A stretch of 64,000 nucleotides of DNA from a virus. The position numbers and the translations under genes are program-made. The notes beneath the pieces were generated by a model. The model saw only the letters and a list, made by a program, of their open reading frames with translations. It made no database searches and was not told the origin of the DNA. Location: IMG/VR virus record IMGVR_UViG_3300017729_000001, positions 1-64,000 of that record. One strand, written 5' to 3'. Every line of letters begins with the position of its first letter. The stretch's first letter is position 1. Shown here one piece after another: positions 1 through 50,527 of the stretch.

Positions 1-173
1 ACTAATTGCGCACCGAAATGGTTACATATTTCTTGGTCTTCAAGTAATCTCTTTGGATTATTTTCTACAGTTAGAATAACCTTTTTTTCATACTCTGAGT
101 CATACAAATACTTGCTAGCACTTAATATGATATCATCCGAATGAGGTTGGATGAGTAAAACTTTTTTTTCCAT
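1..173 (-). CDS. PIG-L/LmbE-like deacetylase, N-terminal fragment
   Basis: This is the first 57 codons of a gene that runs off the left edge of the window. The ATG at 173-171 gives a protein starting MEKKVLLIQPHSDDIILSAS. The PHSDD segment matches the zinc-binding PHxDD motif near the N-terminus of PIG-L/LmbE N-acetylglucosaminyl deacetylases, preceded by the expected hydrophobic beta strand. The second His of the family lies outside the window. Such enzymes remove N-acetyl groups from sugars. In a phage the substrate could be a nucleotide sugar, a cell-surface glycan or a DNA-base decoration; nothing visible decides this. The family call rests on one motif and its position. Confidence 0.6.
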   Translation of the reverse strand, partial: MEKKVLLIQPHSDDIILSASKYLYDSEYEKKVILTVENNPKRLLEDQEICNHFGAQL

Positions 174-3896: not shown

Positions 3897-4538
3897 TTAT
3901 TTTTTAAACTGTATGTTGATTCTGGAATTAGTAACTAGGTTAGCATTTCCTGTTGGAAACGCATTATCTGCTCTATCATCTGCTGCCTTATCAACAGCAA
4001 CTTCATATTCACCATGTCCGAATCCACTCGCCCAAGAACCATCTCTATTTTCCCAAACTAACAATAAGTTGTCTGTTCCATTATAACAAAAATTTGTATC
4101 AAAGGTAAATGACTTCCAACCTGAGCCGAAGATAGTCCAAGTGAAATTTTCTTTAACTATTGTCTCATCATAAATTGTCAAATTGGATAAATCAATCGGT
4201 TGACCATTATTGTCAAACACGCTTTCAACTACGTGGTACAATTTTATAGTCTGATTATTGTAGGTATATCCATTTGAGTAACCCGCAATTTCAATATTAA
4301 TACCAGTGATTTGCATTGGTACTGGATTCAGGGCAGTACTTCCTAGTTCATCATATTCCCAAATCGCAGCATACCAACTGTAATCATAAAGACCATAGGC
4401 TGGAGCATTCGATGAGTTCCTAGTTCCTGTTCCAACCTGAAAGCTGTTTCCAAGTATGGGGGCACAACCACCTGTGTCAGTGTTTTCGTTTCTTTGCGAA
4501 TTTAAATGCCCTTTGTATGGTATAATTTTCTGAGTCAT
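3897..4538 (-). CDS. Beta-rich fibre-region protein, possible carbohydrate-binding domain
   Basis: 213 aa, rich in Tyr, Trp, Asn and Gly, with alternating beta-strand pattern and no long helices. The segment WENRDGSW near residue 162 resembles motifs in beta-sandwich domains of secreted Bacteroidetes proteins. It follows two large Cys-rich fibre-like genes, so it probably belongs to the adsorption apparatus and may bind a surface glycan. This is inferred from composition and context. Confidence 0.55.
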   Translation of the reverse strand: MTQKIIPYKGHLNSQRNENTDTGGCAPILGNSFQVGTGTRNSSNAPAYGLYDYSWYAAIWEYDELGSTALNPVPMQITGINIEIAGYSNGYTYNNQTIKLYHVVESVFDNNGQPIDLSNLTIYDETIVKENFTWTIFGSGWKSFTFDTNFCYNGTDNLLLVWENRDGSWASGFGHGEYEVAVDKAADDRADNAFPTGNANLVTNSRINIQFKK

Positions 4539-4541
4539 ATT

Positions 4542-6257
4542 CTATGTATAATTATGTCCATATGTCCACCAAAAAGTTGTTCCGTCAAATACCCAAGAAA
4601 AGATATCAAACGCATTAGGTGTTAAAGTTATTGTAGCATTCCCATCAGCAACTACTTTACTATATGGTGGTGCTTTTAGGTTTCCATTAGGAATGTTAAG
4701 AGCAACAGCATTATCACCCACTGAATTCTCTACAATTAGTGTTCCATAATCTCCATCTTGTGCTCCTGTGATAATTAGGTCATAATTTCCCCCTGTTGGT
4801 ATATTTATCTTTGCGTTGTAGTAATCAACATAACGCCAAGTAAATTGTGGACCAGCAGCAGTTATGGTTTGAAAAGGCTTTCTTGAATCTTGCATATTTG
4901 CTACATCCAATAAACTCTCATTCACTACTATATCAACTTCGCCTGTTCCTGTTAGGTCATCAATATCAATTGTTGAATCACTAGACTTAATTGACTTAAA
5001 TTCTAAATCAGAACCAGTCTTGGCATCAAACAATCCTACTCCAGCCCCACTATTACTCGCTGTATTTGCTTCACCTGTTCCAGTCAATCCATCCAACTTA
5101 ACTTTATCGGCAGAACTCATAACTCCAGATGTCGATGTAGTTGCTAATTTCAACTCTAATTCTTGAGATGATAAATCAGCACTATCTTTCGTAACTTGAC
5201 CTGAGTTTAAAGTCACTGAATCATGCCTTTTACTGGTATTAGCAGACACGTCAGAATTATTACTTACTTCCGTATCGAAATCAGTAATTTCACTTGCCGT
5301 ATGAGTATGAGAGAAATTAGTAATTTGACTTTTGTCAATTTGTAAATTAGATTCATTTACATCAATATCAATCTCGTCATTCGCTGTATCGTCAGTCACG
5401 CTGACTTTATTACTTCCAGCATTTATCTTTTTGAACTGAAGTTTGGTTCCATCCATCCCCTTATATGGACCAACACCGCCAGTTCCTATATTTTCACCTT
5501 CATTATCTGAACCACCACTTCCAGAGTCAGGGTCATAGCAATCCGCAGTTCCAATTCTAAAATCTTCAATTACATAACGACTTTCATTCGTATTTGACAC
5601 AGGCTGTAATGTCCTACATACCAAAGTTGACGCATTAAATGTTCCATCGGCAGCAGTCATTAATAAAGTATAAACTCCAGGTGAAGTGCTTTGGTCAACA
5701 GTCCATTTAGTTGCTAGTGCTCCATCTCCAAAACTAAATTCCATAGCGTCAGTTGGACTCACTGCTGTATTTGTAGCTAGTGTGATTTCAAGAGTGTAAG
5801 TTTGTCCACTCACTAAGGGCAACCCATCTTCTCCAAGAAATGTGATTGGTGGCGTTACTACTTCTAAATGAATAAACTTTTGTAGTCCAATTCTATTCTG
5901 AACTGATAAATCTTGCGTATTTGATATTGGTGTAGTGAATGTTAAATATTCCCAGACATTAAGATACGACCCACCTGTGTTAGCTGGAAGATAATCTGAC
6001 CAATCACAACCTCCACAACATTCGACCTTACAAGAATTAATCCACCTTTGAAAAAACAAGGCTTCAAAAGATGCGCTTGTCTCATCTAGCTTATTTGGTG
6101 AAACAATAATTCCTTGGTAGCATCTTTCTATGCCTCCCTCAGTTCTACTTGTTGAGAAATTAGAGCCTTGGTCATCTGAAGCCCATCTTATATAGGTGTA
6201 GTTTCCTTTACCACAACCGCAATTGCCTCCGCACGCACAATTTTTATTTCCACTCAT
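4542..6257 (-). CDS. Cys-rich tail fibre-like protein with repeat stalk
   Basis: 571 aa. The N-terminus is Cys/Gly rich, followed by NYTYIRW (residues 19-25), RCYQGIIV (45-52) and CKVECCGGCDW (76-86), a module also seen in the neighbouring 6286-7908 protein. A beta domain follows (about 90-235), then fibre repeats (about 265-460) with recurring LxFKxIxxxxxxIxI strands separated by DDxTGTGE/DDTANDEID-type turns, typical of trimeric phage fibre stalks. The last 110 residues form a compact beta-rich tip. It probably contributes to host recognition. It is an evident partial paralogue of the upstream protein. Confidence 0.65.
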   Translation of the reverse strand: MSGNKNCACGGNCGCGKGNYTYIRWASDDQGSNFSTSRTEGGIERCYQGIIVSPNKLDETSASFEALFFQRWINSCKVECCGGCDWSDYLPANTGGSYLNVWEYLTFTTPISNTQDLSVQNRIGLQKFIHLEVVTPPITFLGEDGLPLVSGQTYTLEITLATNTAVSPTDAMEFSFGDGALATKWTVDQSTSPGVYTLLMTAADGTFNASTLVCRTLQPVSNTNESRYVIEDFRIGTADCYDPDSGSGGSDNEGENIGTGGVGPYKGMDGTKLQFKKINAGSNKVSVTDDTANDEIDIDVNESNLQIDKSQITNFSHTHTASEITDFDTEVSNNSDVSANTSKRHDSVTLNSGQVTKDSADLSSQELELKLATTSTSGVMSSADKVKLDGLTGTGEANTASNSGAGVGLFDAKTGSDLEFKSIKSSDSTIDIDDLTGTGEVDIVVNESLLDVANMQDSRKPFQTITAAGPQFTWRYVDYYNAKINIPTGGNYDLIITGAQDGDYGTLIVENSVGDNAVALNIPNGNLKAPPYSKVVADGNATITLTPNAFDIFSWVFDGTTFWWTYGHNYT

Positions 6258-6285
6258 TTTATTTCTTTTTATGTTTTAATAACTG

Positions 6286-7908
6286 TTAAGCAACTGGGTC
6301 ACTACTCTCTGCTTCAGCAGCAGCAGCACCGCCACCCTCTAATTGAGCCACTCTTATTTCCAAAGCTTCAGTAGCAGCAGCATTGTCTTCTCCAACTACT
6401 TTATTACTACTTACTTTTTCATTAGTTTCTTCAACAACTTTCAAAGTAGATGCGTTGGCACGGTCAATTTGTTCTGTTCTATCCTTAACATTATCTGCTT
6501 CCCATAGTACAAAATCAGTTTCCTTATAGTTATCAATCTTGTCGTCAATATCCTTTGCTCTTTCGTCTAGTATCTCCTTTGCTCTCCACTGCTCATATTC
6601 ATGTTTCCACTTGGTATCTTCTGCTTCAGTTTCAGTTGCTCTGTCTTCAAGTTCTTTTATTTTATCACTTAATTCCGCAATCAATGCGGTTAGTTCCTTA
6701 ATATCACTAGCAGACTTCGCACAACATTCGTCTATGATTTCACGCAACTCTGCTATTTCTTTAGTCAGGCTTTCTTCTACAACTCTAATTTCTTCTTGTA
6801 ACTCGTTAATCACCTTGAATAGCTTTTCCATTTGTTTCAAAATGGTTTCGCAATCACAATCTGTACTTTCATCTTCATCCGAACATCCGCAATCATCGCA
6901 TGCTCCTGTAGGAATCCACATACCTTTAAAGTTAGCATAACTCAAGTCAGTAATCTCCGTTTCACTCGTTATGACAGCCCAATAACATCTACACTTTTTA
7001 CAAACTTCACCCTCTCCTGAATAAGTCAGGCAAGTTTCTTGTCCTAGCCTAACATCAAAAGTAGTGTTCATAGTTCCCTCAAAGTTTCCAAGTGTAATTA
7101 TTATTTGAGAACCACTTGCTACTCCATCGACATTAGAATGGACAGTTCTTTGTTCTGTAACTGGCCCAATTATATTTTCTCCATCCCCAGGGTTGCCTAA
7201 GTGAACAGTGAATCTACCATTGTAGGTAGCAACTGTAGTTATCTCTACTACATAATTGATAAAGTTTATCAGGTCAGCACCATTCAACTGTGTATCTATA
7301 ATAAGTTGTTGTCCAGGCAATCCATTTACGACTTCTACAGTCAATCCACCATTAGGTGAAGCTGTCGCTGAAAATGAGCCATTGGATAATGGATTCACAA
7401 TATAGCTATCTCCCCAAGAGCAATCTACACATGGTGCTTCATATCCTGGTTCTTCATAAATTGGATAATCACCCTCTCCACATTCATCCGAAAATCTCAA
7501 ATAAGTAAAGTTTCCTGTTTTTCCATTCTCATCACACCTACAATAGATTGTCCACTTTTTAGAAAACAAATCTGGAACTAAATCTACAAGGTCAATTTCC
7601 GTATTTGATGTTATGATAGCCCAATAGCAATGTCTTTCTGCGTTGAAGTCTAAACTAAACCCCTCGCCACTACATGCTTCAGCAAAAGCTATATAAGTAA
7701 AATTTCCACCATTACTAGGATTGGTATTTTGACAGAGTGGGTACCAATCTGCTAGAATTACATCATAATAGTAATGTACTTTCGCTGGACCAGTAGTATA
7801 AGGTGTGTTGGCATCATTGTACCAAAGTATTTTTGTATTCAGTGGTGGATTGACACCAACGTGAATAGCTTTTATAAGTCCTAAATTTTTTGTTCCAATT
7901 ATTGGCAT
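6286..7908 (-). CDS. Cys-rich fibre-like protein with coiled-coil stalk
   Basis: 540 aa. NFTYIAF (residues 69-75), HCYWAIIT (93-100) and YCRC (122-125) form one module. NFTYLRF (133-139) with CVDC (160-163) starts a second, split by a beta domain (170-300) before CRCYWAVIT (306-314) and CDDCGC (337-342). A coiled coil (about 354-520) and an Ala/Glu-rich tail follow. The paired cysteines suggest metal binding or disulfides. The architecture points to an elongated virion protein. It lies just downstream of the portal gene and upstream of its partial paralogue (4542-6257). Function is inferred from architecture. Confidence 0.6.
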   Translation of the reverse strand: MPIIGTKNLGLIKAIHVGVNPPLNTKILWYNDANTPYTTGPAKVHYYYDVILADWYPLCQNTNPSNGGNFTYIAFAEACSGEGFSLDFNAERHCYWAIITSNTEIDLVDLVPDLFSKKWTIYCRCDENGKTGNFTYLRFSDECGEGDYPIYEEPGYEAPCVDCSWGDSYIVNPLSNGSFSATASPNGGLTVEVVNGLPGQQLIIDTQLNGADLINFINYVVEITTVATYNGRFTVHLGNPGDGENIIGPVTEQRTVHSNVDGVASGSQIIITLGNFEGTMNTTFDVRLGQETCLTYSGEGEVCKKCRCYWAVITSETEITDLSYANFKGMWIPTGACDDCGCSDEDESTDCDCETILKQMEKLFKVINELQEEIRVVEESLTKEIAELREIIDECCAKSASDIKELTALIAELSDKIKELEDRATETEAEDTKWKHEYEQWRAKEILDERAKDIDDKIDNYKETDFVLWEADNVKDRTEQIDRANASTLKVVEETNEKVSSNKVVGEDNAAATEALEIRVAQLEGGGAAAAEAESSDPVA

Positions 7909-7911
7909 GTC

Positions 7912-9528
7912 CTATTTTTTTGTTAATTTGTTCATAAATGACTTCACAAATGGGTTGTCTTCAGAATCTCCTGACATAAATGGGTTGTCCTCGTCATCTT
8001 CATCCTCATCCCCTAAAAATGGATTCAAGTCCATTTCGTCACCTTCCATTCCCATTCCACCTTGCTCTTGTTGAGCAGCCATCATTAGCTGTTGAGCATA
8101 GGTTGGGTTCAATATAATATCTCCCCCATCAATAGGTTCAAGTGAGTACTTTTTACGAATCTCATTTACAGTTTGAAAGTTTGAAAGTTTCTTAATCTCA
8201 ACATCAAGTTCTTCCTGAATCGTCATACCATTTAGACCAACGAAACAAAACTCATAGTTTGGGTCTATTTGATTGACAATATATTTATTTATCTTCCTTT
8301 GGATAAACTTTAAAAGTGGATATAAACCTTTGTCTTTTGAGTGCTTCAGTTGTCCTTCATTATTGCTCTCAAACATCGACTTATTCCCTGGACTTGTCGA
8401 AATATTAAATCCAATCTCATTTGGGTCAATAGCAAATATCGCACAAGAAATCTTAATCAGATATTCAGTCCAAGAATTGTACTCCATATCTCTATTCGAC
8501 TTCTGTAAATCTATCCAATCAATATCAGCATCAACTATCGGTGTTTTCCAGGATTGCTGAACTCCAGTAATCATAGACAACCATTCTTGTCTAAATGCCT
8601 GAAGTTGCTTTTCGTTTACATTCCCCTTTACTCTCAATAAACCTTTAGGTGCTGAACCTTGACTGAAGAACTTTTTATTGTATTCGTCAGCCCACAACAT
8701 ACTTGTTATTGTACTAACCAATTCTTCCATCTCACTAATTCCATACCCTACATTTATAAGGTTGGTCGATGGGTTTCTTACTCCAAAGCATAATTCCCAT
8801 GGATAAAAAACTGCCTTGACAGCACCTTGATAAATCTGTACATAAGATGGGTAATGACCGTCAATCATTTCTTCTTCACCCTCGTATTCATCGTCATCGT
8901 ATGAATCAGCTAGTCTATATGTTGCGGCATCAGTAGCAAAAAACTCGTGAATCTCTCCACTCCTATTCCTTACGACCTCAAAACACATCTGGTCATACTT
9001 TAACGAATCGTCAACAATCTTTCTTATAAAGGTTTCAAAGTCATCCGTATGCCAATTTGCTGCCGTTCCGCAATTTAAGATTATGTCTTGAATCTCGTTG
9101 ATTCTAGCATATTCTTCATCAGTAGTATCTCTTTCTGTTTCGCCCAACTTTCGTTTCTTACGAATTACAAATCCAGTTGAGTATCTATCAGCTTGTGGTT
9201 CGGCAAAATCGGCAATCTGATTTTTCCTAGTCTTTAATATAGCATTTATGATAGGTGTCTTGGCCATCCTATTCAAAGTAGCATAACTTAAAGAAAATGG
9301 CTTGTCTTTATATCCAAAATTGTGATTAAACTCTAATGGGTCAACAATGTAACTTTTTTTATTACCATCGTTCTGAGAGTTCATATCTCCAAGAATCTGT
9401 TTAGCCTTAATTAAGTCACTAGGTGATTCACCTTTCATTGCCTTTTCAACAAGCATCATCTCCTTGACGGCAAGTTTTTCCTTTACCTTTGCCAAGTTAT
9501 CTAATTGGTTTTTGATACTATTGCTCAT
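7912..9528 (-). CDS. Portal protein
   Basis: 538 aa. The central region carries portal-family features: a region around YGISEMEEL, a KFFSQGSAPKGLLR stretch, then a conserved IFAIDPNEIGF segment and a C-terminal helical region. The last 50 residues are very acidic with two NPFxxGDEDED-like repeats. Portal proteins form the dodecameric ring at the head vertex through which DNA is packaged and ejected. Length is typical for HK97/SPP1-type portals. It is preceded by the 949-aa acidic protein and followed 3 nt later by a fibre gene. Large terminase is elsewhere (20728-22404). Confidence 0.85.
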   Translation of the reverse strand: MSNSIKNQLDNLAKVKEKLAVKEMMLVEKAMKGESPSDLIKAKQILGDMNSQNDGNKKSYIVDPLEFNHNFGYKDKPFSLSYATLNRMAKTPIINAILKTRKNQIADFAEPQADRYSTGFVIRKKRKLGETERDTTDEEYARINEIQDIILNCGTAANWHTDDFETFIRKIVDDSLKYDQMCFEVVRNRSGEIHEFFATDAATYRLADSYDDDEYEGEEEMIDGHYPSYVQIYQGAVKAVFYPWELCFGVRNPSTNLINVGYGISEMEELVSTITSMLWADEYNKKFFSQGSAPKGLLRVKGNVNEKQLQAFRQEWLSMITGVQQSWKTPIVDADIDWIDLQKSNRDMEYNSWTEYLIKISCAIFAIDPNEIGFNISTSPGNKSMFESNNEGQLKHSKDKGLYPLLKFIQRKINKYIVNQIDPNYEFCFVGLNGMTIQEELDVEIKKLSNFQTVNEIRKKYSLEPIDGGDIILNPTYAQQLMMAAQQEQGGMGMEGDEMDLNPFLGDEDEDDEDNPFMSGDSEDNPFVKSFMNKLTKK

Positions 9529-13176: not shown

Positions 13177-13599
13177 TCAAATACTTAATATCTGTTCGTT
13201 GAACTTATTTAATGATTTGACGTTAAAAGTTATTTCAATGTTCTCAGCAGATGAATGCTTGATGAAAATTCTACCACCTTTCATTTTCATTATCATTTCA
13301 TCATTTATCTTGTTTTCCTCTTTATCTAATACGACCTCACTGTCAAAAGCATCATAAATAAACATGGTCATCGCAATGAAATCATCAGGTTCATTTTGGT
13401 CATCAATATGAAAAGTGACGCAGTCATTTACGTCACTCTGTAGCAATTTTGCTATCCTATTGTACTTGATTAGACTTTCTTCATCCAAAGAAAGTTCGCT
13501 CAATCTTTCGTAATATATATTTGTTCCGTTTGGGGACTGAATACACTTCTTTGTTTCCCCTCTCCAATTTTCATCTTCCAATACTTTTGAAATTCGCAT
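13177..13599 (-). CDS. Small acidic protein overlapping the kinase-like gene, unknown
   Basis: 140 aa from the ATG at 13599; a GTG two codons earlier is also possible. From the ATG it overlaps the upstream 346-aa gene by 100 nt in another frame, which is unusually long for this phage. A TTG at 13503-13501 would give the common TTGA stop/start overlap and a 108-aa protein, and may be the real start. The later part is a mixed alpha/beta sequence with no motif I recognise. Confidence 0.55.
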   Translation of the reverse strand: MRISKVLEDENWRGETKKCIQSPNGTNIYYERLSELSLDEESLIKYNRIAKLLQSDVNDCVTFHIDDQNEPDDFIAMTMFIYDAFDSEVVLDKEENKINDEMIMKMKGGRIFIKHSSAENIEITFNVKSLNKFNEQILSI

Positions 13600-14540
13600 A
13601 ACCACATTTCTATTTGGTGTAATGTTATTTTCCCCTCTTTGGGTTTTACAATCTTATAGTTGTTCGTTTCAAAGTCCCAGTCAATATATTTGAAATTCCC
13701 ATTTTTTTCTAAATACCCTTTGGCCATATCTCTTAATATGTATATGCCCTTTTCTTGCTCACCCTTTTTTAAAGATGGAAATATCAATCTTATTCCGATG
13801 GAGGCACCTGGACCAACATTAGTAAAATCATCTTGGTCAAACTTCATTAGCTTCATTTTAGAATATCTTGGAGCATATGTAAAGTCCTGATAAAACTCGT
13901 GAGCAATAAAATCTGCTACTGCGGGCAAGGTCTTTAGGAATTTTATTATGTCCTCAGGCTCATTAGCAGTGAGAAGCAATTTGTTTATCTTAGGAATAGC
14001 ACTATGTATTGTCGGCACTACTTTCTGGGTGTAACACCAATCTCTTTTCTTGCCTGGACACGCTTGAGAATTTATCAGATAGGCATTAGTGTATGGGTTG
14101 TTCCCTGTTTTTCTGTACTCATCAACTAGACTGGCCCATTCATCTTTATTGTAATCATCGTAATTCGGCATCATACCTTCAAACGACTTCTCTTGCTTAC
14201 CATACCACTCAAACGCTTCAGGGCAATTAAATATCCTGAATAACATAATCTTCCAAATCAAGTCCTTACGTTTATTTGGTTCCATAAAAACATGCTTTAT
14301 TTGCCATTGTGAATGTCGGTCAAGTTCTCTAAATACATTCGTGAATTTATGGTTAGACATGAATGGGTCATCACTCCATGGTCTTGGTTCTTCTTTGATG
14401 AATCTTTTATGCCATATTTCTTGTCTTTCAAACATGGTTGAGAAAAACAAATTCAAGTTTTCCTCATCAACTTCTTTATCCTCCGATGGTAAAGCATTCC
14501 CCCATGACTTCATTCCATAGGCTGTTCTAAATTCTGCCAT
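13500..14540 (-). CDS. 5-hmdU DNA kinase / thymine pyrophosphorylase clade protein
   Basis: 346 aa. The segments FFSTMFERQEIW (residues 32-43), PWSDDP (54-59), FTNVFRELDR (66-75) and then SQW...EPN...DLIW in order match the helical domain of the phage family comprising 5-hydroxymethyl-dUMP DNA kinases and alpha-glutamyl/putrescinyl-thymine pyrophosphorylases. These act on 5-hydroxymethyluracil in replicated phage DNA to build hypermodified thymines. A second half (about 150-330) is conserved-looking and includes a GPGASIGIRL segment. It lies between glucosaminidase and head genes, overlapping the former by 14 nt. Family recognition is strong; which reaction it performs cannot be told from sequence by eye. 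Confidence 0.7.
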   Translation of the reverse strand: MAEFRTAYGMKSWGNALPSEDKEVDEENLNLFFSTMFERQEIWHKRFIKEEPRPWSDDPFMSNHKFTNVFRELDRHSQWQIKHVFMEPNKRKDLIWKIMLFRIFNCPEAFEWYGKQEKSFEGMMPNYDDYNKDEWASLVDEYRKTGNNPYTNAYLINSQACPGKKRDWCYTQKVVPTIHSAIPKINKLLLTANEPEDIIKFLKTLPAVADFIAHEFYQDFTYAPRYSKMKLMKFDQDDFTNVGPGASIGIRLIFPSLKKGEQEKGIYILRDMAKGYLEKNGNFKYIDWDFETNNYKIVKPKEGKITLHQIEMWLCEFQKYWKMKIGEGKQRSVFSPQTEQIYITKD

Positions 14541-15054
14541 TTACAATTTCTTTTAGTTTATTAACATACTGTTTATCTTCAGCATAGGTTTCTCCCAACT
14601 TCTGATAATATTCTTCGACACTTAACTTTTTAGCATATCTTGATTGCCAAATCATATAGTCAAAAATACAAGACCTCCAATCAGAATAATAAGCATATCC
14701 ATTCTTTTCTTCTAACGATGTAGTTGGACGTTGTCTAGGGTGTTTCATCCCTATCAAATTATTGTTTGACTTTGATAAATTGGAAGTCAATCTGCCACTT
14801 TCTAAAATAATCTGGGCCAATACTATCTCCCAATGTTCCATATTGTTATTCTTTAATAACTGCTCCACCATACATATTGTTATGGAATCGTGATTAGTTT
14901 CAATGTTGGTTTCAACTAATTCATAATGATTATTTTCAGGCAAGCATTCCTCAATCGGCTCATCTTTACTTTTTAACATTAGAATGAAAACCAACATGGC
15001 CATTCCAAATCCAACAATGTAAATGTGTATTCTTGTAGCTTCACTAATTCTCAT
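14527..15054 (-). CDS. Membrane-anchored glucosaminidase-type peptidoglycan hydrolase
   Basis: 175 aa. Residues about 9-27 form an N-terminal membrane anchor or uncleaved signal. Residues 60-172 match the glucosaminidase family: AQIILESGRLTS with the probable catalytic Glu85, NNLIGMKHPRQRPT, GYAYYSDWRSC and the final LGETYAEDKQYVNKL helix. Such enzymes cut the GlcNAc-MurNAc glycan chain. Because it carries its own export signal and is distant from the holin cluster, it may be a virion-associated hydrolase for entry or a second lysis enzyme. Similar domains are frequent in Bacteroidetes and their phages. Confidence 0.8.
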   Translation of the reverse strand: MRISEATRIHIYIVGFGMAMLVFILMLKSKDEPIEECLPENNHYELVETNIETNHDSITICMVEQLLKNNNMEHWEIVLAQIILESGRLTSNLSKSNNNLIGMKHPRQRPTTSLEEKNGYAYYSDWRSCIFDYMIWQSRYAKKLSVEEYYQKLGETYAEDKQYVNKLKEIVNGRI

Positions 15055-16103: not shown

Positions 16104-17048
16104 TTAATTCACTGTACTCGTCATAGCATAAACTGCCATGTCTTTCCAGTCCTCTCCATTCTCCGAATCTGTCCTCATACTTATCACTTTCATCAATGTT
16201 CTGAAGTTTAAATCTCCGCAGTGATGTTGATATTCTTCTAACAGTTCCATACATTCTTCTTTTACATCAAGCTGAATGTCAGGTCTTATTTTATCAAGTA
16301 TTGCTCTCATTCTTTCAATCTTAACAGGATTGGTCATCGACAAATCTATGCTCATAGACCTAGACAAGATTGCTTGATCAATTCTTTCTTGAGGCAAATT
16401 ACTTACGAATATTATGCGCCCATTAAAACTAAATTCTGATGGTAAGTCAGGCAACTCCTTATTAGTTATCCAACTTATCTTTCTTTCATCATAGCTGTCA
16501 AGCGCACCTTTTAATAAGTTCTTTGCCGTTGGGTCTTTTAGTACCTCGTCACAATCGTCAAATATAATGAGCTTATCTGAGTGCTCATACAAAGTCCTAT
16601 AAAGTCCACGTGGCGTTGAATAGCCTTTTACTATCACATAATCAAAATCTTCAATCAAGTTCTTTTTTAGAATCTCTTGCTTCACTGAATGTGATTTTCC
16701 TAGACCACCCTCACCTGTGATTATCATAGAAACAGATGTCTTTTTGATAACCATTCTTATCATGTTTTCTAGGAATCTAAATTTGTCATTTATATTGAAC
16801 TGAGTTGGAGGTGTCATTGAAACAACTTGCTCTCCGATGTCGCTTGATGTTTGTGTTCCGACATTCTGTATATCGGTTGATGAGAGTATCTTTATTTTTT
16901 CAATTCTCCTGTCGAACTTACGACCATCGTCAGATTCAATCGTGTGATACTCGTTTCTGCCTTCTTTTATATACTTACCAAAAACAACCTCTCCACTCCT
17001 TAACCGAATCGAAACAGCTGTCCCAGGTAAAATCTTCATATCCATCAT
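16104..17048 (-). CDS. AAA+ ATPase
   Basis: 314 aa. Residues about 8-53 form a small beta-barrel-like N-terminal domain. The AAA+ core has Walker A GEGGLGKSH (112-120), Walker B LIIFDDCDE (160-168), sensor-1 Asn in FVSN (214-217) and a likely arginine finger in AILSR (about 226-230). The helical lid occupies the C-terminus. Related single-module phage AAA+ proteins act as remodelling ATPases, but no partner is evident. It has its own upstream region with tandem TTGTAA(A) repeats. Three possible ATGs lie close together at the start. Confidence 0.8.
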   Translation of the reverse strand: MMDMKILPGTAVSIRLRSGEVVFGKYIKEGRNEYHTIESDDGRKFDRRIEKIKILSSTDIQNVGTQTSSDIGEQVVSMTPPTQFNINDKFRFLENMIRMVIKKTSVSMIITGEGGLGKSHSVKQEILKKNLIEDFDYVIVKGYSTPRGLYRTLYEHSDKLIIFDDCDEVLKDPTAKNLLKGALDSYDERKISWITNKELPDLPSEFSFNGRIIFVSNLPQERIDQAILSRSMSIDLSMTNPVKIERMRAILDKIRPDIQLDVKEECMELLEEYQHHCGDLNFRTLMKVISMRTDSENGEDWKDMAVYAMTSTVN

Positions 17049-20727: not shown

Positions 20728-22404
20728 TTATAGAAATTTGAAGCTGAATCCTTGCGAAATCTTTTTAGCAGCAATACTTGTTAGCCATAACGCCATTGCT
20801 TGGTCATCATGTTCTCCTACTCCCTCCAAACCTTTTTCAGTCCATGTTACGGATGATAGTTCAGTAGCAAGTGAATCGGCTGTGTCTATTGAGTCTTGGT
20901 TTCCTCTTGGTATTCTTATCTTGCCTCTTTCAAATAGTATTGCTAAGCCTGGCAAACCAGCTTTTAAATCATATTTATTAGTTCCTGTCGTATGACCTTC
21001 AACTGGAAGACCAGCACGCTCACCCTCTTGAACGAATATCTGCTGGAATACGTTATTCTCCATCACCATTATGTCGCATTGAAATGACGCATGAATCTGT
21101 TTTATTACAGAAAGTTGTTCAGCAAATGACTTACCTTTAAATCTAGTAATGTTCATTAGCCATATATTATCATTTTCATCAATACCAGCAGTGATGATTA
21201 CAGTATAATCGGCACCAACCGAACTTGATATTGAAAAGTCAATTCCAGTCACAACCCTATCAAACTTCATTTTAAAGGCTGAACGTGAACGAACAAAAGT
21301 GTAATCTTCCATTCTCACATATGCCCTTTCGATAATGTCTTGTGGGAATATTGATGACTCATTCGTAACTGGTCGGCATAAATTCTCTCTTGAAAAAATT
21401 ATGTTACCTTGTGTTGACCTCTTTTCCATCAACTCTTTGAATCCCCATCTTTCTCTCCATAGAATAGTACCATCTGGAAATATAGCTGGATATTCTCTCA
21501 CGTGCCAACCCTCTTTACTTTTTAGGTCACCATATAGGTCATTAGAGTGAAATGGTGTTCCTACGACTATCACTTGACCTTTAGGAACAATCATATTCAT
21601 TATCACGGCATGAAAATAGTCAATAGACTTCTTACGCTGTACTGAACTATATATAACATTATCTTTCAATCCATCATCAACTACGATATATCCAGGGTGA
21701 GCACCCCTAACTGATGAACCAAAACCTTTCGTTGTTATTCTTGCTCCATTCTTCGCTACAATATCAGTTTTTGCCCAACCATCAGTTCTGCCTGGAAATA
21801 GCCTATCACGTAATTCATCATTGTCCTCTATTGTACTTTTTAATATATCCAAAAGGTCAACTGCTTGTTGTTGAGAGAATGAAAATAGGAATCCACGCTT
21901 TGATAGTGCTAAATCTTTCCTTGGTCTAGCAAAACCTGTTATGGGTTGATATCTATATAGCTTCCAAGCCAAATATGCGTTGGACCAATAATAACTCTTT
22001 CCATGGTCACGGGCAGCAATTACATTCACCTTACTATTTCGTTGAGCCATATCACCCCATTCTAAATGATGCCAATTTAATTCAAACTGAGGCAACTTAC
22101 TTAAAATGAAATATGTTAGATTTTCAATACATAGTGTTTCTTCTATTTGCTTGGTCAGATTGTCAAAATATCCTAGCTTTAATTGTAGTTGATTTTCTCT
22201 ACCATAAATTACATTAAACACTTCTTCAAGAATTATGCTATACACATCTTCAACGTCAGAAGCATACCCTCCAAACAATTCTCTTGTTCCTGTCTCATCT
22301 AGGTTGTTGATAATTTCATCGAACACCCTGAATGCCTCGTCAATTTTATCCATCGACAAGGCATTACTAAATTGAGATATGATTTTTACATCCTCTTGGT
22401 CCAT
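20728..22404 (-). CDS. terL: Terminase large subunit
   Basis: 558 aa. The ATPase domain has a Walker A variant ARDHGKS (residues 131-137), Walker B YIVVDD (239-244) and coupling motif VGTPFHSND (281-289). The RNase-H-fold nuclease domain has GIDFS (387-391), MEN with Glu449, and EHDDQAMA (531-538), giving the usual acidic metal ligands. The protein drives DNA translocation into the prohead and cuts the concatemer. The His-for-bulky variation in Walker A (RxHGKS) is normal for phage terminases. It lies in an operon with a DnaQ-type exonuclease rather than beside the portal. Confidence 0.93.
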   Translation of the reverse strand: MDQEDVKIISQFSNALSMDKIDEAFRVFDEIINNLDETGTRELFGGYASDVEDVYSIILEEVFNVIYGRENQLQLKLGYFDNLTKQIEETLCIENLTYFILSKLPQFELNWHHLEWGDMAQRNSKVNVIAARDHGKSYYWSNAYLAWKLYRYQPITGFARPRKDLALSKRGFLFSFSQQQAVDLLDILKSTIEDNDELRDRLFPGRTDGWAKTDIVAKNGARITTKGFGSSVRGAHPGYIVVDDGLKDNVIYSSVQRKKSIDYFHAVIMNMIVPKGQVIVVGTPFHSNDLYGDLKSKEGWHVREYPAIFPDGTILWRERWGFKELMEKRSTQGNIIFSRENLCRPVTNESSIFPQDIIERAYVRMEDYTFVRSRSAFKMKFDRVVTGIDFSISSSVGADYTVIITAGIDENDNIWLMNITRFKGKSFAEQLSVIKQIHASFQCDIMVMENNVFQQIFVQEGERAGLPVEGHTTGTNKYDLKAGLPGLAILFERGKIRIPRGNQDSIDTADSLATELSSVTWTEKGLEGVGEHDDQAMALWLTSIAAKKISQGFSFKFL

Positions 22405-25395: not shown

Positions 25396-25842
25396 TCAGT
25401 TGGTTTTATTTGTTGAACCAAATCCACCCTCACCTCTATCAGAGTCAGACAATTCGTCAACCTCTATCAGCTTTATTTGTGGTATAGGCATGATGATTAT
25501 CTGCCCAACTCTCTCTCCTAGCTTATAGATGTTTTTGCCCTCTAAGTTTAACCCAGTCACTTGAAACCTGAGACAAACTTCGCCACGATAACCTGAGTCA
25601 ATCACTCCGACTGCGTTTTTCAGCATTAAGTCCTTTTTTGAAACAGAACTCCTAGCAAATAACAATCCTACATAACCCTCAGGAATCTCAAATGCTAAGC
25701 CAGTATGATACTGAATATATTTACCCCCTTTGTCGAACTTAATCTCAGTAGCAACTAAATCAAGTCCAGCATCCCCCAACTTAGCATACTGAGGGATGAT
25801 TGCTTCTGAACTTAACTTCTTAATGTTTACACTTACTTCCAT
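25396..25842 (-). CDS. dut: dUTP diphosphatase (trimeric dUTPase)
   Basis: 148 aa with all five motifs of trimeric dUTPases: DAGLDL (residues 24-29), ARSS (63-66), GVIDSGYRGE (79-88), GERVGQIII (109-117) and RGEGGFGST (136-144). It converts dUTP to dUMP and diphosphate, keeping uracil out of DNA and supplying dUMP to the TS-family enzyme at 49265-50527. Full length and intact active site. The stop overlaps the start region of the 30-aa micro-protein and the start overlaps the DUF3846 gene by 1 nt. Confidence 0.95.
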   Translation of the reverse strand: MEVSVNIKKLSSEAIIPQYAKLGDAGLDLVATEIKFDKGGKYIQYHTGLAFEIPEGYVGLLFARSSVSKKDLMLKNAVGVIDSGYRGEVCLRFQVTGLNLEGKNIYKLGERVGQIIIMPIPQIKLIEVDELSDSDRGEGGFGSTNKTN

Positions 25843-44775: not shown

Positions 44776-45036
44776 TTACTCAATTTTTTCCTTTTTTGAA
44801 GAATCTTGATTCATATCAATCATTCGCTCCAAATAGTCTTTCGCCTTTAATAAGTCTGTCAGATTGTGACCTTTGGTTGAGTTGGGTCTTGTAAACCTGT
44901 CCAGGTATCTTTTAACATTTTCAGAACACCATATGTCACCACGTTCTTTACTTATTCTGTAGTTGGTTGATATCTGGTCGAACTCTCTTGGTCCATACTT
45001 ACTTCTGTTTGATTCATTTAATTCCTTAACGTCCAT
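44776..45036 (-). CDS. Small helical protein, DUF3310-like
   Basis: 86 aa. ERGDIWCSENVKRYLDRFTR (residues 32-51) followed by KGHNLTDLLKAKDYLERMID resembles DUF3310 and related helical phage proteins (VxKYIxRxxxKxGxxDLxKAxxYLxxLI). Function unknown, sometimes linked to nucleotide metabolism by neighbourhood. It lies between the HD enzyme and SSB genes. Confidence 0.65.
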   Translation of the reverse strand: MDVKELNESNRSKYGPREFDQISTNYRISKERGDIWCSENVKRYLDRFTRPNSTKGHNLTDLLKAKDYLERMIDMNQDSSKKEKIE

Positions 45037-45646
45037 ATTTTGTATAATTTAATGATGAAATATCTACAAGCACTTGTTCTTCAAACTTGCCTCTTTCTTT
45101 TAGAGCCTTAAAACACTTGCCTGATGCTTCTCTTATTTTCTCGACACAATAATCAAACTCCTTGTATAAATCTTTATTGCCCAATGTTATTTCTTTTTTT
45201 ACATAGAATAACATAGATAACCAATCAGCCAATTTTACGATGGTTTTAACCACTGGGTCATTATCTCCTAGCAGATACGACTTCAGCATATTGTTAGTTG
45301 GACTAAACTCCTTGAATTTAGTGCTTACCATATGGTGACAATAGTCATCAATCATTTCTTTTATCTTGTGTCCGTTGTACTTATTGTACTTCACATTATG
45401 GGTAATGTCGCCTGAGAACATTTCATCGAAATCGTGAAATATCGCATATGTAGTTACATCCAATTTTAGCTTTTCTTCACCCTCTGGAAACATCTCTTCA
45501 ACAAGTATTCTGGAGAACCAAGACACTATAAAGGAATGGTGAGCAACTGACTCGTTGTTTATCCTATTCAATCCATTCCACCTTACTAAATTATTCAACT
45601 GGTCGTAATCAGCGTCAGTGAATATGTCGTCAAAAATATTATTCAT
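45026..45646 (-). CDS. HD-domain phosphohydrolase (YfbR-like 5'-nucleotidase)
   Basis: 206 aa from the ATG at 45646; an ATG at 45661 adds five residues. HD signature: NESVAHHSFIV (first His), AIFHDFDEMFSGDI (HD pair) and a later Asp. YfbR-type enzymes dephosphorylate deoxynucleoside monophosphates. Here it lies directly downstream of a polymerase and TS-family enzyme, so it may remove unwanted dNMPs in the phage pool. An acidic middle part separates the two HD motifs. Confidence 0.75.
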   Translation of the reverse strand: MNNIFDDIFTDADYDQLNNLVRWNGLNRINNESVAHHSFIVSWFSRILVEEMFPEGEEKLKLDVTTYAIFHDFDEMFSGDITHNVKYNKYNGHKIKEMIDDYCHHMVSTKFKEFSPTNNMLKSYLLGDNDPVVKTIVKLADWLSMLFYVKKEITLGNKDLYKEFDYCVEKIREASGKCFKALKERGKFEEQVLVDISSLNYTKYGR

Positions 45647-45650
45647 AATT

Positions 45651-48600
45651 TTAATTGTCATTTAATACTATTAACCTTGACTGCTTATTGAGCCATAGGT
45701 GATTATTTCCAGAGCCTTTTGCGTTTTTATTTTTCTGATACTTATTGGATAAGGCAAATCCATTTATACAAAATAACAACTTCTTGGACAATAGTTCTTC
45801 AAAGTCATCACTCATACTTTCCCAAATTTCTCCGAACACTCCTAAAAATAAAAGCACGTTGTTATTCTCTACTGTTATCACAACTCTATAATTACCACTT
45901 GACTTTGTTCTGTTTACTTTTATTCCTTGAACCACTCCAGCCACTGTTAATGGTGTTCCATTTGTTTCTGGCTTCCAAGGTTTGCCCTCTCTAAAATCAT
46001 TCAACTCAAAGTCTTTAGCAGTTGTGTATGGATACTTTTTTAATTTGCTAGACTTCTTACGAATCATCGGCATAAAGTCCACATATCCAAAACCAGTCAA
46101 CTCTCTCTGCTTAATGGCCCAGAACCAATTATTGTTATCTTTGTCCTCAGATGGAAACCCTTCAATATACTTGTGACCAGCTAGTTCGCAATGTCTCAAA
46201 AGTATGTGCATTCTTTGCTTCACTTCTCCTATCTCACACCCATTTTCATCTCCTATCTCATCAAGTGCTCCAGCCATGATTAAATGTTGTACAACTCGCT
46301 TATTCACTTTTGACTTCGGCACTCTTTTATAGAAATCTTCCAAGTCAAAAAACATACCATTCTTTTCCCTTTCTTCTAGTATGTTTTGAACAGCAATTTG
46401 CCCTACATTTTTAATTTTAGTAAGTGACCAATATATCGCATTACTATCAGAATCGGCAGTGAACTGAATATCCGACTTATTTATATCAGGTTGCTTTACT
46501 TTTATATCACCCCCAATTTTTTCAATCTCTGATAATCTATTAGGAATCTCAATTTTTTCATCGGCAAAGTTCAATGACGCTGTCCAAAACTCTAGTGGAT
46601 ATTTTACTTTTAAATATTGGCACCAATATCCCATAAGTGAGTAAGCAGCAGAATGCGACCTGTTGAATCCATAGGCTGAAAATGCGTTTAGTTTGTCCCA
46701 AATATCATTAGCTTCATCAGTGGGGCATCCGTTTTCATTCGCACCCTTCAAAAACTTCTCTTTGGCACTTTGCATCTTCTTATGGTCGAACTTTTTTATG
46801 GCTGTCCTTAATTCATCTGCTTCAGCTAATGTTAGTTTGCCTAACACGTTTACAGCTTGCATTATCTGTTCCTGATAGATATATAGTCCAAAGGTATTTT
46901 CAGTCACCTTATCCAACTTAAAATCATAAATAGGTTCAAGTTTTCCGTGCTTAATATCTACGAACTTTTCATGTGCCCTACTATCCATTGGACCAGGTCT
47001 AAATAAAGCATTCATTGAAATCAAATCTTCAATACCATCTGGCCTCACTTTTTTAGAATAGTTTTTCAATCCTGACGTTCCAAACTGAAATACATCTTCG
47101 TTCCAACCTCGTTTGAAGAATCGCATGACATCCTTTTTATCAATAGGAATCTTATTCAAACTAACTTTCTTGCCCTTATTCTTTTCTATTTCTTTCAGAA
47201 TGTACTTGAACTTATCTAGTTGTGCGATGCCCAAGATGTCCTCTTTTAAGAATCCAGCAGCATCAATGTATTTTCCCTCCCATTCTGATACTAACTGACC
47301 ATCCATCATCTTAATAGGCATCCAATCATGAATCTCCATCTTATTACCATCCCCATCGAATTTCGGCACGATTAAAACAGCTGATGGATGAATGGAACCA
47401 GACCTTGGTTGTCCAAGTGGTGCCTTTATGGCTTCACAAATATCTATATTTTTCTGTACAAACTTCTTCAAGGAATCTTTACCAACGCAACTTTTAAATA
47501 TATCAGACCACTCTGGGTTATGTGAGTCAGGAATTTCCCTTGTGGCAAAATTAACGTCATTAAAAGTCAACCCCTTTACTCTTCCAAAATCTTTTATAGC
47601 ACTTTTAGTTTTTAGCCTTGTGTATGTTCCTATCGAACAAACATAATTCTTTCCATACTTTTCTTCAATATATCTCTTTACATCTTGTCTTCTCTTACCC
47701 TCAAAATCGACATCAATATCAGGCAAAGCATCAGCCGACTTAGCACGCTCACCTGAAACCCTAGCTTTGTTAAGAAATCTCTCAAAAAGTAAATCATATT
47801 GAATAGGGTCAATTTCAATTATTCCTAGCAAATATGCTACTAATGAACCTCCAGCTGAACCCCTAGCTGGTCCAACTAGAATGTCTTGACTTTTAGCCCA
47901 CTCAACAATATCCCAAAGAATCAAAAAGTAATCTATAAATCCAGCACCTTTGATTACATCATTTTCCTCATCCACCCTATCTAAATAAGCAGCACACTTT
48001 TCTGAGTCATCACCGAACTTCATTAAAACCTTTTTTTGAAAGCCTTTCATGATTAAATCGTCATAAAGTTTTTCTGGGTCATCAACTTCAAATCTAGGCA
48101 ACTTATGGTTACCTGTGTCAATCTGGTAGTTACAAGCATCAGCAATTACTCTAGTGTTTGCCAAACCTCTTATGACCAAATCAAATTTATCTGGACTTGA
48201 ATTAAACATGGAAACAATTTTATCCACGATATCATCAGCATCTTTAAAGTATTGGTCAACGCTATATGGAATGGCTTTTCTGTCTATCTTGTTCAAGTAA
48301 TCTTTAGTTCCAAAATCTTGCTTCTCAATATAATAGGCATCACTTATCACGACAGGTTTGATTAACTTGCTGAAATTGTCAAAATAAGTCTTCAAATTAT
48401 TCAAATTCATCAAATCTAATTTATCATCATCGAACTCACTAAAATCAATCTGATAATATAAACCATTTCCGAAAAGTTTTTTGTACTTTTTTATGTATTT
48501 GATACCAGCTTTCTTGTCTCCACTTATCCTATTAAAATACCCTTGAGTTGGAAATACGCAAATAAGTCCTTCAGTTTTTTCAAGCAATATTTCTTCTGGA

Positions 48601-49268
48601 ATGAATGAATCGAAATCTACATTTATCAGTTTAGATATGTTCAATAAGTTTCTCCAACCAACATAATTCTTGACATATAACTTTAAATCATAGGTGTTCT
48701 GGTATTCAGCTTTTTCATCATAGTCAATCGCAACCGAAATAGTTTGTCCATGTACACACTTGACTCCTTTCTTCTTAGCAGAAAGTTGTAATGGAAGTGT
48801 TCCAGCAAGTGTATTCTTTTCGCAAATTCCTACGACATCGTGATTAAAGAAAGAGCATTTATCAATCCACCTAGATGATTCACCTGAACCATTCAATAAT
48901 TCATAGCCAGTGTGAACTCCTAGATTAACGAACTTGAAATCAAATACGCTTTTATACTCTCCAATATTTATGAGGTCATTGAATACAGGCTCATATACGA
49001 CATCTCCAGCCTCATCTCGCTTTTCTTCTAAAGGTGAATAATAGAATTTTGTCCCCCACTTAAAAACCACATGATTCAAATCATCTCTCTCATATAGTAA
49101 TTCATCTTCATCATCACTAATTAGAAATTCAAAATCATCTCCAATTATCTTTCCATCAACTCCCTTTAAATATAACATCTTTCCAAAGCCTGGGACATCA
49201 TAGATATTAGAGTAGTCAAGCTCATAATTTATGCCCCTAGACTTTAGCCATTCATTTAGTTCAATCAT
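45651..49268 (-). CDS. dnaE: DNA polymerase III alpha-like (C-family) polymerase
   Basis: 1205 aa. C-family polymerase features: GPARGSAGGS (residues 466-475), PDIDVDF (516-522) with the catalytic aspartates, ALFRPGPMD, YQEQIMQAV and FNRSHSAAYSL motifs, then an HhH segment and an OB-like end. The N-terminal PHP domain is degenerate: FVNLGVHT replaces FxHLHxHS and GICEKN replaces the D-H pair, so metal-dependent nuclease activity is unlikely. It probably replicates the phage genome, with proofreading supplied by the DnaQ-type exonuclease elsewhere. Start overlaps the TS-family stop by 4 nt. Confidence 0.92.
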   Translation of the reverse strand: MIELNEWLKSRGINYELDYSNIYDVPGFGKMLYLKGVDGKIIGDDFEFLISDDEDELLYERDDLNHVVFKWGTKFYYSPLEEKRDEAGDVVYEPVFNDLINIGEYKSVFDFKFVNLGVHTGYELLNGSGESSRWIDKCSFFNHDVVGICEKNTLAGTLPLQLSAKKKGVKCVHGQTISVAIDYDEKAEYQNTYDLKLYVKNYVGWRNLLNISKLINVDFDSFIPEEILLEKTEGLICVFPTQGYFNRISGDKKAGIKYIKKYKKLFGNGLYYQIDFSEFDDDKLDLMNLNNLKTYFDNFSKLIKPVVISDAYYIEKQDFGTKDYLNKIDRKAIPYSVDQYFKDADDIVDKIVSMFNSSPDKFDLVIRGLANTRVIADACNYQIDTGNHKLPRFEVDDPEKLYDDLIMKGFQKKVLMKFGDDSEKCAAYLDRVDEENDVIKGAGFIDYFLILWDIVEWAKSQDILVGPARGSAGGSLVAYLLGIIEIDPIQYDLLFERFLNKARVSGERAKSADALPDIDVDFEGKRRQDVKRYIEEKYGKNYVCSIGTYTRLKTKSAIKDFGRVKGLTFNDVNFATREIPDSHNPEWSDIFKSCVGKDSLKKFVQKNIDICEAIKAPLGQPRSGSIHPSAVLIVPKFDGDGNKMEIHDWMPIKMMDGQLVSEWEGKYIDAAGFLKEDILGIAQLDKFKYILKEIEKNKGKKVSLNKIPIDKKDVMRFFKRGWNEDVFQFGTSGLKNYSKKVRPDGIEDLISMNALFRPGPMDSRAHEKFVDIKHGKLEPIYDFKLDKVTENTFGLYIYQEQIMQAVNVLGKLTLAEADELRTAIKKFDHKKMQSAKEKFLKGANENGCPTDEANDIWDKLNAFSAYGFNRSHSAAYSLMGYWCQYLKVKYPLEFWTASLNFADEKIEIPNRLSEIEKIGGDIKVKQPDINKSDIQFTADSDSNAIYWSLTKIKNVGQIAVQNILEEREKNGMFFDLEDFYKRVPKSKVNKRVVQHLIMAGALDEIGDENGCEIGEVKQRMHILLRHCELAGHKYIEGFPSEDKDNNNWFWAIKQRELTGFGYVDFMPMIRKKSSKLKKYPYTTAKDFELNDFREGKPWKPETNGTPLTVAGVVQGIKVNRTKSSGNYRVVITVENNNVLLFLGVFGEIWESMSDDFEELLSKKLLFCINGFALSNKYQKNKNAKGSGNNHLWLNKQSRLIVLNDN

Positions 49269-50527
49269 AATTCACCTAATGGATATACAAGTTCTTCTTT
49301 TAAATCATCGTTCTGGAACTTAGCCGCAAAGAAATTCACAGCCAATGCCGTAATATCTAACGATGGAAAGAACATTGTGAGGTCTCCAATCTCCTTTATT
49401 TTATTAAATCTGAATTCATCCTTGGTTATGATACGTTTTTTATCATCATTCAACAACTCTTTATAATGAAGATACAAATCAAGCAAATCATAAATCAAAG
49501 CAAAATACTTAGAAAACTCATTCAGTGAATCGAAATCTGCTTTGGCCATTCTTTTCCCTGACTTTAAAGTATTGATGATTAAATCTATATATCCATCAAC
49601 CTCGTGTAATCTACCTTCCACGCTTTCCATATTGAACTTCATATCTATATGAGCTGGGTTGTAGCTATCGTACACGTCAGGAATATTATCTCCATCAGAA
49701 GCAAATTGCGTATGCTCATACATATTCATAGCAATTTCATTCTCCGTGTAGAAATGAAGACTTTGAGAGTTGTGAGTTTGTGTTCCTAGCTTTAAGCCTA
49801 AAATATTAGACATAATCTCAGTAATAAAACTAAACTGAAACACATTAGTTGGTAACCCCCAATGTAAGTCATTACTCCTATTCGCTATGGTAGTATGAAA
49901 CTTGCCATCCCTAACTTTAATCATTACAAGGTCATTACATGGTATATCCTTGCTTTTAGTGCCCAAGTCAAGTTCCGTATTCCATATTGACATTACAGCA
50001 CGTCTATCATTTGGGTTTTCGCTTAGCATCTTCAATACTGTTAAAACTTGGTCTTCACCCTCCATCATCTGTTGAATATGGTGTCCTATATGTTCTGGTG
50101 CTCTTGCTTCTTCCTCAAAATTTAATTTACCTTGAACTCCATCAGATGGATGAACATATCCTAATCTTGAATCAACTCCATAATGGCGCAATCTAAAACC
50201 ATATGGCGCATGAAAAACTTTACCATCATCTGAAAACTCTGACATCCTAGAATTAAACTTTTTTAGAAAGTCAACATCACGCTCACCTCTAAATATCCAA
50301 AGTGCTTCAGCCAATAAAAAGAAAATGTTGATATCTCTATTACTTGTGCCTACACATCTAGCATATGGATTTTTTAAAGTGGTCTTGAAATTTAGAACTT
50401 CTTTAGTTGGACCATATCTACTATCCTCACTTTGTCCGTTCTCAATGACGTACTTATTAATTGCTGGGTAAACTTTTGAAAAGATAGGTGCTTTGACACT
50501 ATCATTTAAAATCTGATTTGAACTCAT
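49265..50527 (-). CDS. Thymidylate-synthase-family enzyme (TS or dUMP hydroxymethylase)
   Basis: 420 aa, longer than bacterial TS (264-318 aa). It has the TS-fold signature: RRAV (residues 175-178), catalytic Cys197 in DIPCNDL, RSND (217-220), GLPTN (224-228) and HFY (258-260). The Asn in GLPTN matches the uracil-selecting Asn of TS, so dUMP is the likely substrate. In TS the residue after the catalytic Cys is usually His; here it is Asn. Phage dUMP hydroxymethylases belong to the same family, so the product could be dTMP or 5-hydroxymethyl-dUMP. Because a 5-hmdU-type DNA-modification protein is encoded at 13500-14540, the second option deserves weight. Confidence 0.88.
   Translation of the reverse strand: MSSNQILNDSVKAPIFSKVYPAINKYVIENGQSEDSRYGPTKEVLNFKTTLKNPYARCVGTSNRDINIFFLLAEALWIFRGERDVDFLKKFNSRMSEFSDDGKVFHAPYGFRLRHYGVDSRLGYVHPSDGVQGKLNFEEEARAPEHIGHHIQQMMEGEDQVLTVLKMLSENPNDRRAVMSIWNTELDLGTKSKDIPCNDLVMIKVRDGKFHTTIANRSNDLHWGLPTNVFQFSFITEIMSNILGLKLGTQTHNSQSLHFYTENEIAMNMYEHTQFASDGDNIPDVYDSYNPAHIDMKFNMESVEGRLHEVDGYIDLIINTLKSGKRMAKADFDSLNEFSKYFALIYDLLDLYLHYKELLNDDKKRIITKDEFRFNKIKEIGDLTMFFPSLDITALAVNFFAAKFQNDDLKEELVYPLGEL

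Follow-up and report, generated by a model that had tools for sequence, protein, structure and literature searches.

What does an HMUDK_hel protein do in a phage that appears to lack a kinase for it to work with? The function of aGPT-Pplase1/HMUDK_hel proteins has so far been read from fusion with a kinase or from adjacency to one, and a lineage that keeps a fully conserved HMUDK_hel without a kinase offers a natural separation-of-function experiment. Here, we consider one such gene, arriving at a reading to which we give roughly an even chance: that a 5-hmdU hypermodification system has exchanged its amino-acid route for an amino-sugar one.

The window, that is, the whole stretch of 64,000 nucleotides that was analysed, is part of a virus record of 90,429 bases (90.4 kb). 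An exact 107-base terminal repeat is shared by the ends of the record (window 1-107 equals contig 90323-90429), so that it is very probable that this record is complete, being either circular or circularly permuted. The nearest relatives of the terminase are found in Bacteroides phage DAC15-like phages (35%), and the sole cellular match was a contig binned as Sulfuricurvum. The gene in question and its two landmarks are:

14540..13500, minus strand: stand-alone HMUDK_hel (aGPT-Pplase1) gene, 346 aa, ATG start
7912..9528, minus strand: portal protein (PHROG 12, E=4.5e-54)
20728..22404, minus strand: terminase large subunit (PHROG 38, E=6.1e-62)

The motif series on which the original prediction had rested was found in full in the 346-aa ORF, comprising FFSTMFERQEIW (residues 32-43, the FFxxxxERxxIW pattern), PWSDDP (54-59), FTNVFRELDR (66-75) and EPNKRKDL (87-94). 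That the protein belongs to the known HMUDK_hel family is certain: the profile search proposed along with that prediction matched Pfam PF18723, HMUDK_hel (aGPT-Pplase1), with E=1.2e-50 and 173 bits against a curated cut-off of 25 bits, covering profile positions 3-279 of 281, and PHROG 2396 was matched with E=1.6e-48. Homologues were detected by tblastn in 344 phage records, among them M6, ViI-like phages and Bacillus SBSphiC/Goe26, while 42 closer relatives in IMG/VR share 42-83% identity; in a profile-profile comparison, the lineage alignment matched the cultured-phage proteins with E=4e-45 over 304 columns. Twenty-one residues, many of them charged, are invariant across the lineage and M6, ViI, Sonora, Vibrio 207E48.1 and Goe26, including R39, PW54-55, F66, N68, R71, D74, R102, D219, GPG243-245, E311, CE315-316 and KY319-320. 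All 21 are kept in this phage and, judged by its sequence, the protein looks catalytically intact.

The prediction had spoken of a 5-hmdU DNA kinase/pyrophosphorylase, of which the helical aGPT-Pplase1 part stands and the kinase part does not: the 346-aa protein has no Walker A motif, and no Pfam match was obtained to the P-loop 5-hmdU DNA kinase (PF18748) or to the amino acid:DNA transferase, ADDT (PF18724). The protein also matches PHROG 800, annotated 'terminase small subunit', and M6 gp54 (L046 7411-7974), which bears the same annotation, matches PF18748; given these HMUDK_hel and PF18748 matches, both labels look wrong.

Could the kinase be encoded elsewhere? PF18748 was detected in all six cultured control phages and in none of 25 lineage records searched with Pfam. 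A purpose-built kinase HMM, which recovered all 11 divergent lineage kinases at 74-139 bits in leave-one-out trials, revealed divergent kinases in G020, G008, G025 (three copies), G029, G033, L152 and L154; in a six-frame scan of this complete genome its best score was 9.7 bits and no kinase emerged. Neither an ADDT nor a small P-loop protein was found in this genome, whose conserved Walker A proteins comprise only the terminase, helicases, a RecA-like protein and two AAA ATPases. The same condition, HMUDK_hel without kinase or ADDT, recurs in three further genomes that are complete with terminal repeats (G014, G015 and G027).

The two AAA ATPases are paralogues, one at window 16104-17048 in the same gene island as HMUDK_hel and the other at contig 86884-88380, beside the glycosyltransferase gene described below. 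The former was considered as a replacement for the kinase and set aside; since the latter is conserved in all 13 relatives examined, a specific link between AAA ATPase and HMUDK_hel is not indicated.

These results bear on the canonical route, in which HMUDK_hel assists in phosphorylating 5-hmdU, the kinase activity coming from the host or from a phage protein that went unrecognised, before attachment of an amino acid or polyamine. Such a route is suggested by the P-loop kinase fused to HMUDK_hel in Goe26, by the kinase adjoining HMUDK_hel in M6 and Sonora, by the kinases and ADDT near it in G020, G025 and G029, by the SP10 kinase as top structural match (see below) and by two conserved AAA ATPases of unassigned role. 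It is nevertheless unlikely here, in that a validated HMM finds neither kinase nor ADDT in a complete genome whose other conserved Walker A proteins are a terminase, helicases, a RecA-like protein and AAA-type ATPases.

The missing kinase and ADDT might instead mark HMUDK_hel as the relic of a lost hypermodification pathway, and an in-frame TGA in the G008 copy (L016, 7149-8135) points the same way; there, the TGA stands where the invariant GPG motif has its first Gly, and as TGA is a stop for other G008 genes, either a pseudogene or an error of assembly may be the explanation. Against a relic, 36 relatives carry near-full-length copies, the invariant residues are kept, and selection is strong: relative to the nearest orthologue (82-83% identical), pN is 0.11 and pS 0.77 for this phage's HMUDK_hel, the only such gene in its genome. 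HMUDK_hel is under purifying selection, and a relic is therefore very improbable.

An AlphaFold2 model built from a 23-sequence lineage alignment reached a pLDDT of 86 and a pTM of 0.84; an earlier single-sequence model (pLDDT 38) was discarded. Among viral models (BFVD), Foldseek placed the SP10 5-hmdU DNA kinase closest (6.5e-14), followed by the PhiW-14 HMUDK_hel (5.7e-6) and by ADDTs (5.8e-4 and 1.2e-3). This agrees with the clade originally assigned, although HMUDK_hel itself has no P-loop kinase domain. A sequence search of the PDB gave no match to HMUDK_hel; by fold, the best PDB match was 8z2n, a phage 5-PmdU glycinyltransferase (PUGT), with a probability of 0.98 and an E-value, weak as such, of 0.07, and the next were HhH-GPD glycosylases such as OGG1, at E above 0.3. 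Profile comparison of HMUDK_hel with ADDT was not significant (hhalign E=0.46; shallow alignments of 3-23 sequences). The fold search nevertheless favours such a link, in that the modelled fold resembles that of ADDT and, more weakly, that of HhH-GPD base-flipping glycosylases.

A second line of evidence concerns the supply of 5-hmdU. The original prediction named a dUTPase and a TS-family enzyme that could make 5-hmdUMP; both proved to be genuine genes, the latter of the dUMP-hydroxymethylase type by tree and active-site substitutions, and a third gene belongs beside them:

25396..25842, minus strand: dUTPase, for dUMP supply (PF00692, E=1.2e-21; PHROG 135, E=8.1e-48)
45026..45661, minus strand: HD-domain YfbR-like deoxynucleotidase (PF12917, E=3.5e-18; PHROG 7076, dATP triphosphohydrolase, E=1.6e-22)
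49265..50527, minus strand: TS-family enzyme, most likely a dUMP hydroxymethylase (PF00303, E=1.3e-25)

The best phage matches of the TS-family enzyme were SPO1L5 (142 bits) and M6-like proteins (129), with T4-type TS at about 55-65, and it groups with the SPO1/M6/Goe26 dUMP hydroxymethylases in a tree with support of 100/99. It carries the SPO1/M6-type substitutions L143D and H147N and the deletion of W80, and keeps N177 (E. coli numbering), Asn177 being the uracil-recognition residue of the TS family. By these marks the enzyme likely makes 5-hmdUMP. A PF00303 gene is present in all eight lineage records of at least 86 kb, as well as in four records of 93-110 kb. The YfbR-like HD gene is present in full-length relatives, and M6 gp59, which adjoins the M6 dUMP hydroxymethylase, also matches PF12917; remodelling of the dNTP pool by this enzyme is plausible. 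In SPO1L5, a relative of the plain-5-hmdU phage SPO1, no HMUDK_hel gene was found, consistent with HMUDK_hel serving hypermodification rather than the synthesis of 5-hmdU.

A separate candidate for sugar-modified thymine is Maribacter phage Colly_1 (L131), which has no HMUDK_hel and in which a dUMP-hydroxymethylase-like TS lies beside an annotated beta-glucosyltransferase, a UDP-glucose dehydrogenase and a sugar epimerase (4204-8963).

What accompanies HMUDK_hel in other genomes? In this lineage, the gene sits in a variable island between terminase and portal, which in relatives also holds kinases, ADDT or TAGT (TET-associated glycosyltransferase), and in each of the 19 lineage records with both genes detected, the portal is encoded 38-3972 bp downstream on the same strand. 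This constant position upstream of the portal would suit an HMUDK_hel that had been turned into a DNA-binding factor with no modifying activity, perhaps one serving packaging. Such a role is improbable, given that the family-invariant charged residues are all kept, that 5-hmdUMP synthesis is retained, and that in L144, L147, L148 and L150 HMUDK_hel adjoins a dUMP hydroxymethylase, with no portal within the flanks searched.

The partners of HMUDK_hel vary within the lineage: they are either kinases, in some cases accompanied by ADDT, or glycosyltransferases. In G020 the order is kinase, glutamine amidotransferase domain protein, ADDT, FkbM methyltransferase and then HMUDK_hel; in G002 a TAGT gene and HMUDK_hel overlap by 4 bp; and in G026 a GT-B-like ORF lies 2.5 kb upstream. 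In distant phages a dUMP hydroxymethylase follows HMUDK_hel, and two of these (L147 and L148) show 86-95% identity in the stretches common to both across HMUDK_hel and downstream of it, whereas their upstream cassettes differ, with ADDT and two kinases in one and a radical SAM gene and two unassigned ORFs in the other. Here cassettes have been swapped naturally while HMUDK_hel stayed constant.

Several further features of these neighbourhoods were recorded. The amidotransferase and FkbM methyltransferase flanking ADDT in G020 (L104 12120-14557) suggest that the thymine side chain is elaborated further. In G025 (L142 59987-66180), three divergent kinase-like P-loop genes, an FAD-dependent oxidoreductase and an ADDT all lie upstream of HMUDK_hel. 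Conserved neighbours of about 325 aa, found upstream of HMUDK_hel in several relatives, resemble neither kinases nor glycosyltransferases and looked PIN/5'-nuclease-like by eye only. In this phage, a gene for a membrane-anchored, lysin-like glucosaminidase (14527-15054) overlaps the start of HMUDK_hel by 14 bp.

The original prediction recognised no late modification gene apart, perhaps, from a PIG-L fragment at the edge. Within the window this is right; the rest of the contig, however, holds a GT-B-like gene that overlaps a PIG-L-like gene, and the edge fragment turned out to be the N-terminus of the latter, which crosses the contig junction:

window 1..173 plus contig 89842-90322, minus strand: PIG-L-like deacetylase spanning the circular junction (QPHSDD zinc motif, junction read-through)
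contig 88437-89861, minus strand: GT-B-like glycosyltransferase, 474 aa, outside the window, its start overlapping the C-terminal end of the PIG-L-like gene

Members of the PIG-L-like family share invariant PHSDD and HPxH motifs, and the family profile matches the deacetylase Dbv21 (3dfi) with E=9e-4; a single orthologue tested alone had no Pfam match. The best matches of the glycosyltransferase family are Glyco_transf_5 (1.8e-5), Glycos_transf_1 (7.6e-4) and Glyco_transf_4 (8.4e-4). Glyco_transf_5 is matched by nine of 11 family members, this phage's own enzyme reaching just 0.012, below the cut-off, and its sequence search of the PDB gave no match. As both genes are conserved with HMUDK_hel in most relatives, the PIG-L fragment probably belongs to the modification system, as the prediction had allowed.

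The distribution of the pair is suggestive. Each of the four complete genomes without a kinase (G000, G014, G015 and G027) has both glycosyltransferase and PIG-L genes, and of the two kinase-bearing complete genomes one lacks both, namely G025, which has kinase and ADDT. Mutual exclusion between kinase and glycosyltransferase is broken by G008, with a kinase plus both genes, and the complete genomes are too few for significance. The G018 PIG-L carries a fused TAGT domain (PF20691, 3.5e-9), and the distant phage G028 encodes two homologues of the glycosyltransferase (91 and 78 bits) immediately upstream of its HMUDK_hel and dUMP hydroxymethylase genes; this fusion and this adjacency tie the two families to DNA modification. 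TAGT is a phage DNA-base glucosyltransferase in T2/T6 (PMC13216743, PMC13390438).

The genes of the pair lie between capsid and other virion genes, away from HMUDK_hel, and this placement in the structural region is a point contrary to the sugar route, as they could glycosylate virion or host-surface targets. On that account, 5-hmdU modification would depend on HMUDK_hel alone, and the glycosyltransferase and PIG-L, unrelated to it, would modify proteins of the virion or glycans on the host surface; that no member of this glycosyltransferase family was found among cultured phages also fits. We regard this account as doubtful in view of the PIG-L-TAGT fusion, of the glycosyltransferase homologues adjoining HMUDK_hel and dUMP hydroxymethylase in G028, and of the absence of both genes from the complete kinase-plus-ADDT genome.

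We therefore return to the amino-sugar route. Because kinase and ADDT are lacking while a glycosyltransferase and a deacetylase are present in this phage and most of its relatives, the phage DNA may carry an amino sugar. In outline, dUMP would be converted to 5-hmdUMP by the phage TS-family dUMP hydroxymethylase, the step for which the sequence speaks directly, with dUTPase and the HD nucleotidase presumably shaping the nucleotide pool, and replication would incorporate 5-hmdUMP into DNA as 5-hmdU. HMUDK_hel would then select, and probably flip out, 5-hmdU, as its predicted fold and conserved charged residues suggest. Going by gene association, the 5-hydroxymethyl group would most likely receive an N-acetyl-amino sugar from the GT-B-like enzyme, and deacetylation of this sugar by the PIG-L-like enzyme would leave a free amine, as in the modifications of M6, ViI and PhiW-14. 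Judging from the family, the purpose would be resistance to host restriction. Both the exact reaction of HMUDK_hel and the sugar route are what we infer. To our knowledge, T4 glucosyltransferases need no base-flipping partner, a point that counts against a base-flipping role in glycosylation.

In its most specific form, which we put forward tentatively as a possibility, HMUDK_hel is no accessory of a kinase but a general enzyme of 5-hmdU selection or base flipping with interchangeable finishing modules, the glycosyltransferase and PIG-L of this uncultured, widespread lineage placing an amino sugar (e.g. glucosamine) on thymine. No description of an amino-sugar thymine was found in the literature searched; known amine-bearing thymidines are the 5-aminoethyl form of M6, the aminoethoxymethyl form of ViI and the putrescinyl form of PhiW-14 (PMC6449724, PMC5977210). 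The HMUDK_hel family itself is known; what is new to us is its setting without a kinase and what looks like a switch to a sugar cassette, and together these make the role of the family testable. Were the sugar route true, HMUDK_hel would be shared by two ways of finishing a 5-hmdU handle in phage DNA, one by amino-acid and one by amino-sugar chemistry, and a new DNA base would be predicted along with the enzymes for making it.

One of the closest known systems is that of M6. Its gp55 shares with the protein studied here the full-length match to the same Pfam family and the same 21 invariant residues, and both genomes encode a dUMP hydroxymethylase and a YfbR-like HD enzyme. M6, however, has an adjoining P-loop kinase, an ADDT (gp51) and Nmad5, of which kinase and ADDT are absent here, and its HMUDK_hel lies in the replication region and not between terminase and portal genes. 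The published M6-like cassette comprises pyrimidine hydroxymethylase, Nmad5, aGPT-Pplase1, nucleotide kinase, rSAM, PLP enzyme and aGPT-Pplase2 (PMC9476957). M6 and Sonora encode HMUDK_hel as a gene of its own that adjoins a PF18748 kinase gene, whereas in Goe26 it forms the C-terminal half of a fused 5-hmdU DNA kinase whose N-terminal P-loop kinase domain has no counterpart here; the SP10 protein of this fused type is the best structural neighbour. ADDTs, including the 5-PmdU glycinyltransferase of 8z2n, have a similar predicted fold, but HMUDK_hel is not a member of that family and has no significant sequence-profile similarity to it in the shallow alignments compared.

On the sugar side, the proposed post-replicative transfer of a sugar to a hydroxymethyl-pyrimidine recalls the T-even DNA glucosyltransferases, including TAGT (PF20691), which in relatives stands beside HMUDK_hel or is fused to PIG-L. 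The T-even enzymes act on hmC, and the glycosyltransferase of this phage belongs to a different, GT-B-like family. The proposed order of sugar transfer followed by deacetylation is likewise that of the GT4 and PIG-L pairs in bacillithiol, mycothiol and GPI synthesis, where N-acetylglucosaminyl transfer by a GT4 enzyme precedes PIG-L deacetylation; in those pairs the acceptors are small molecules or lipids, whereas here the putative acceptor is DNA.
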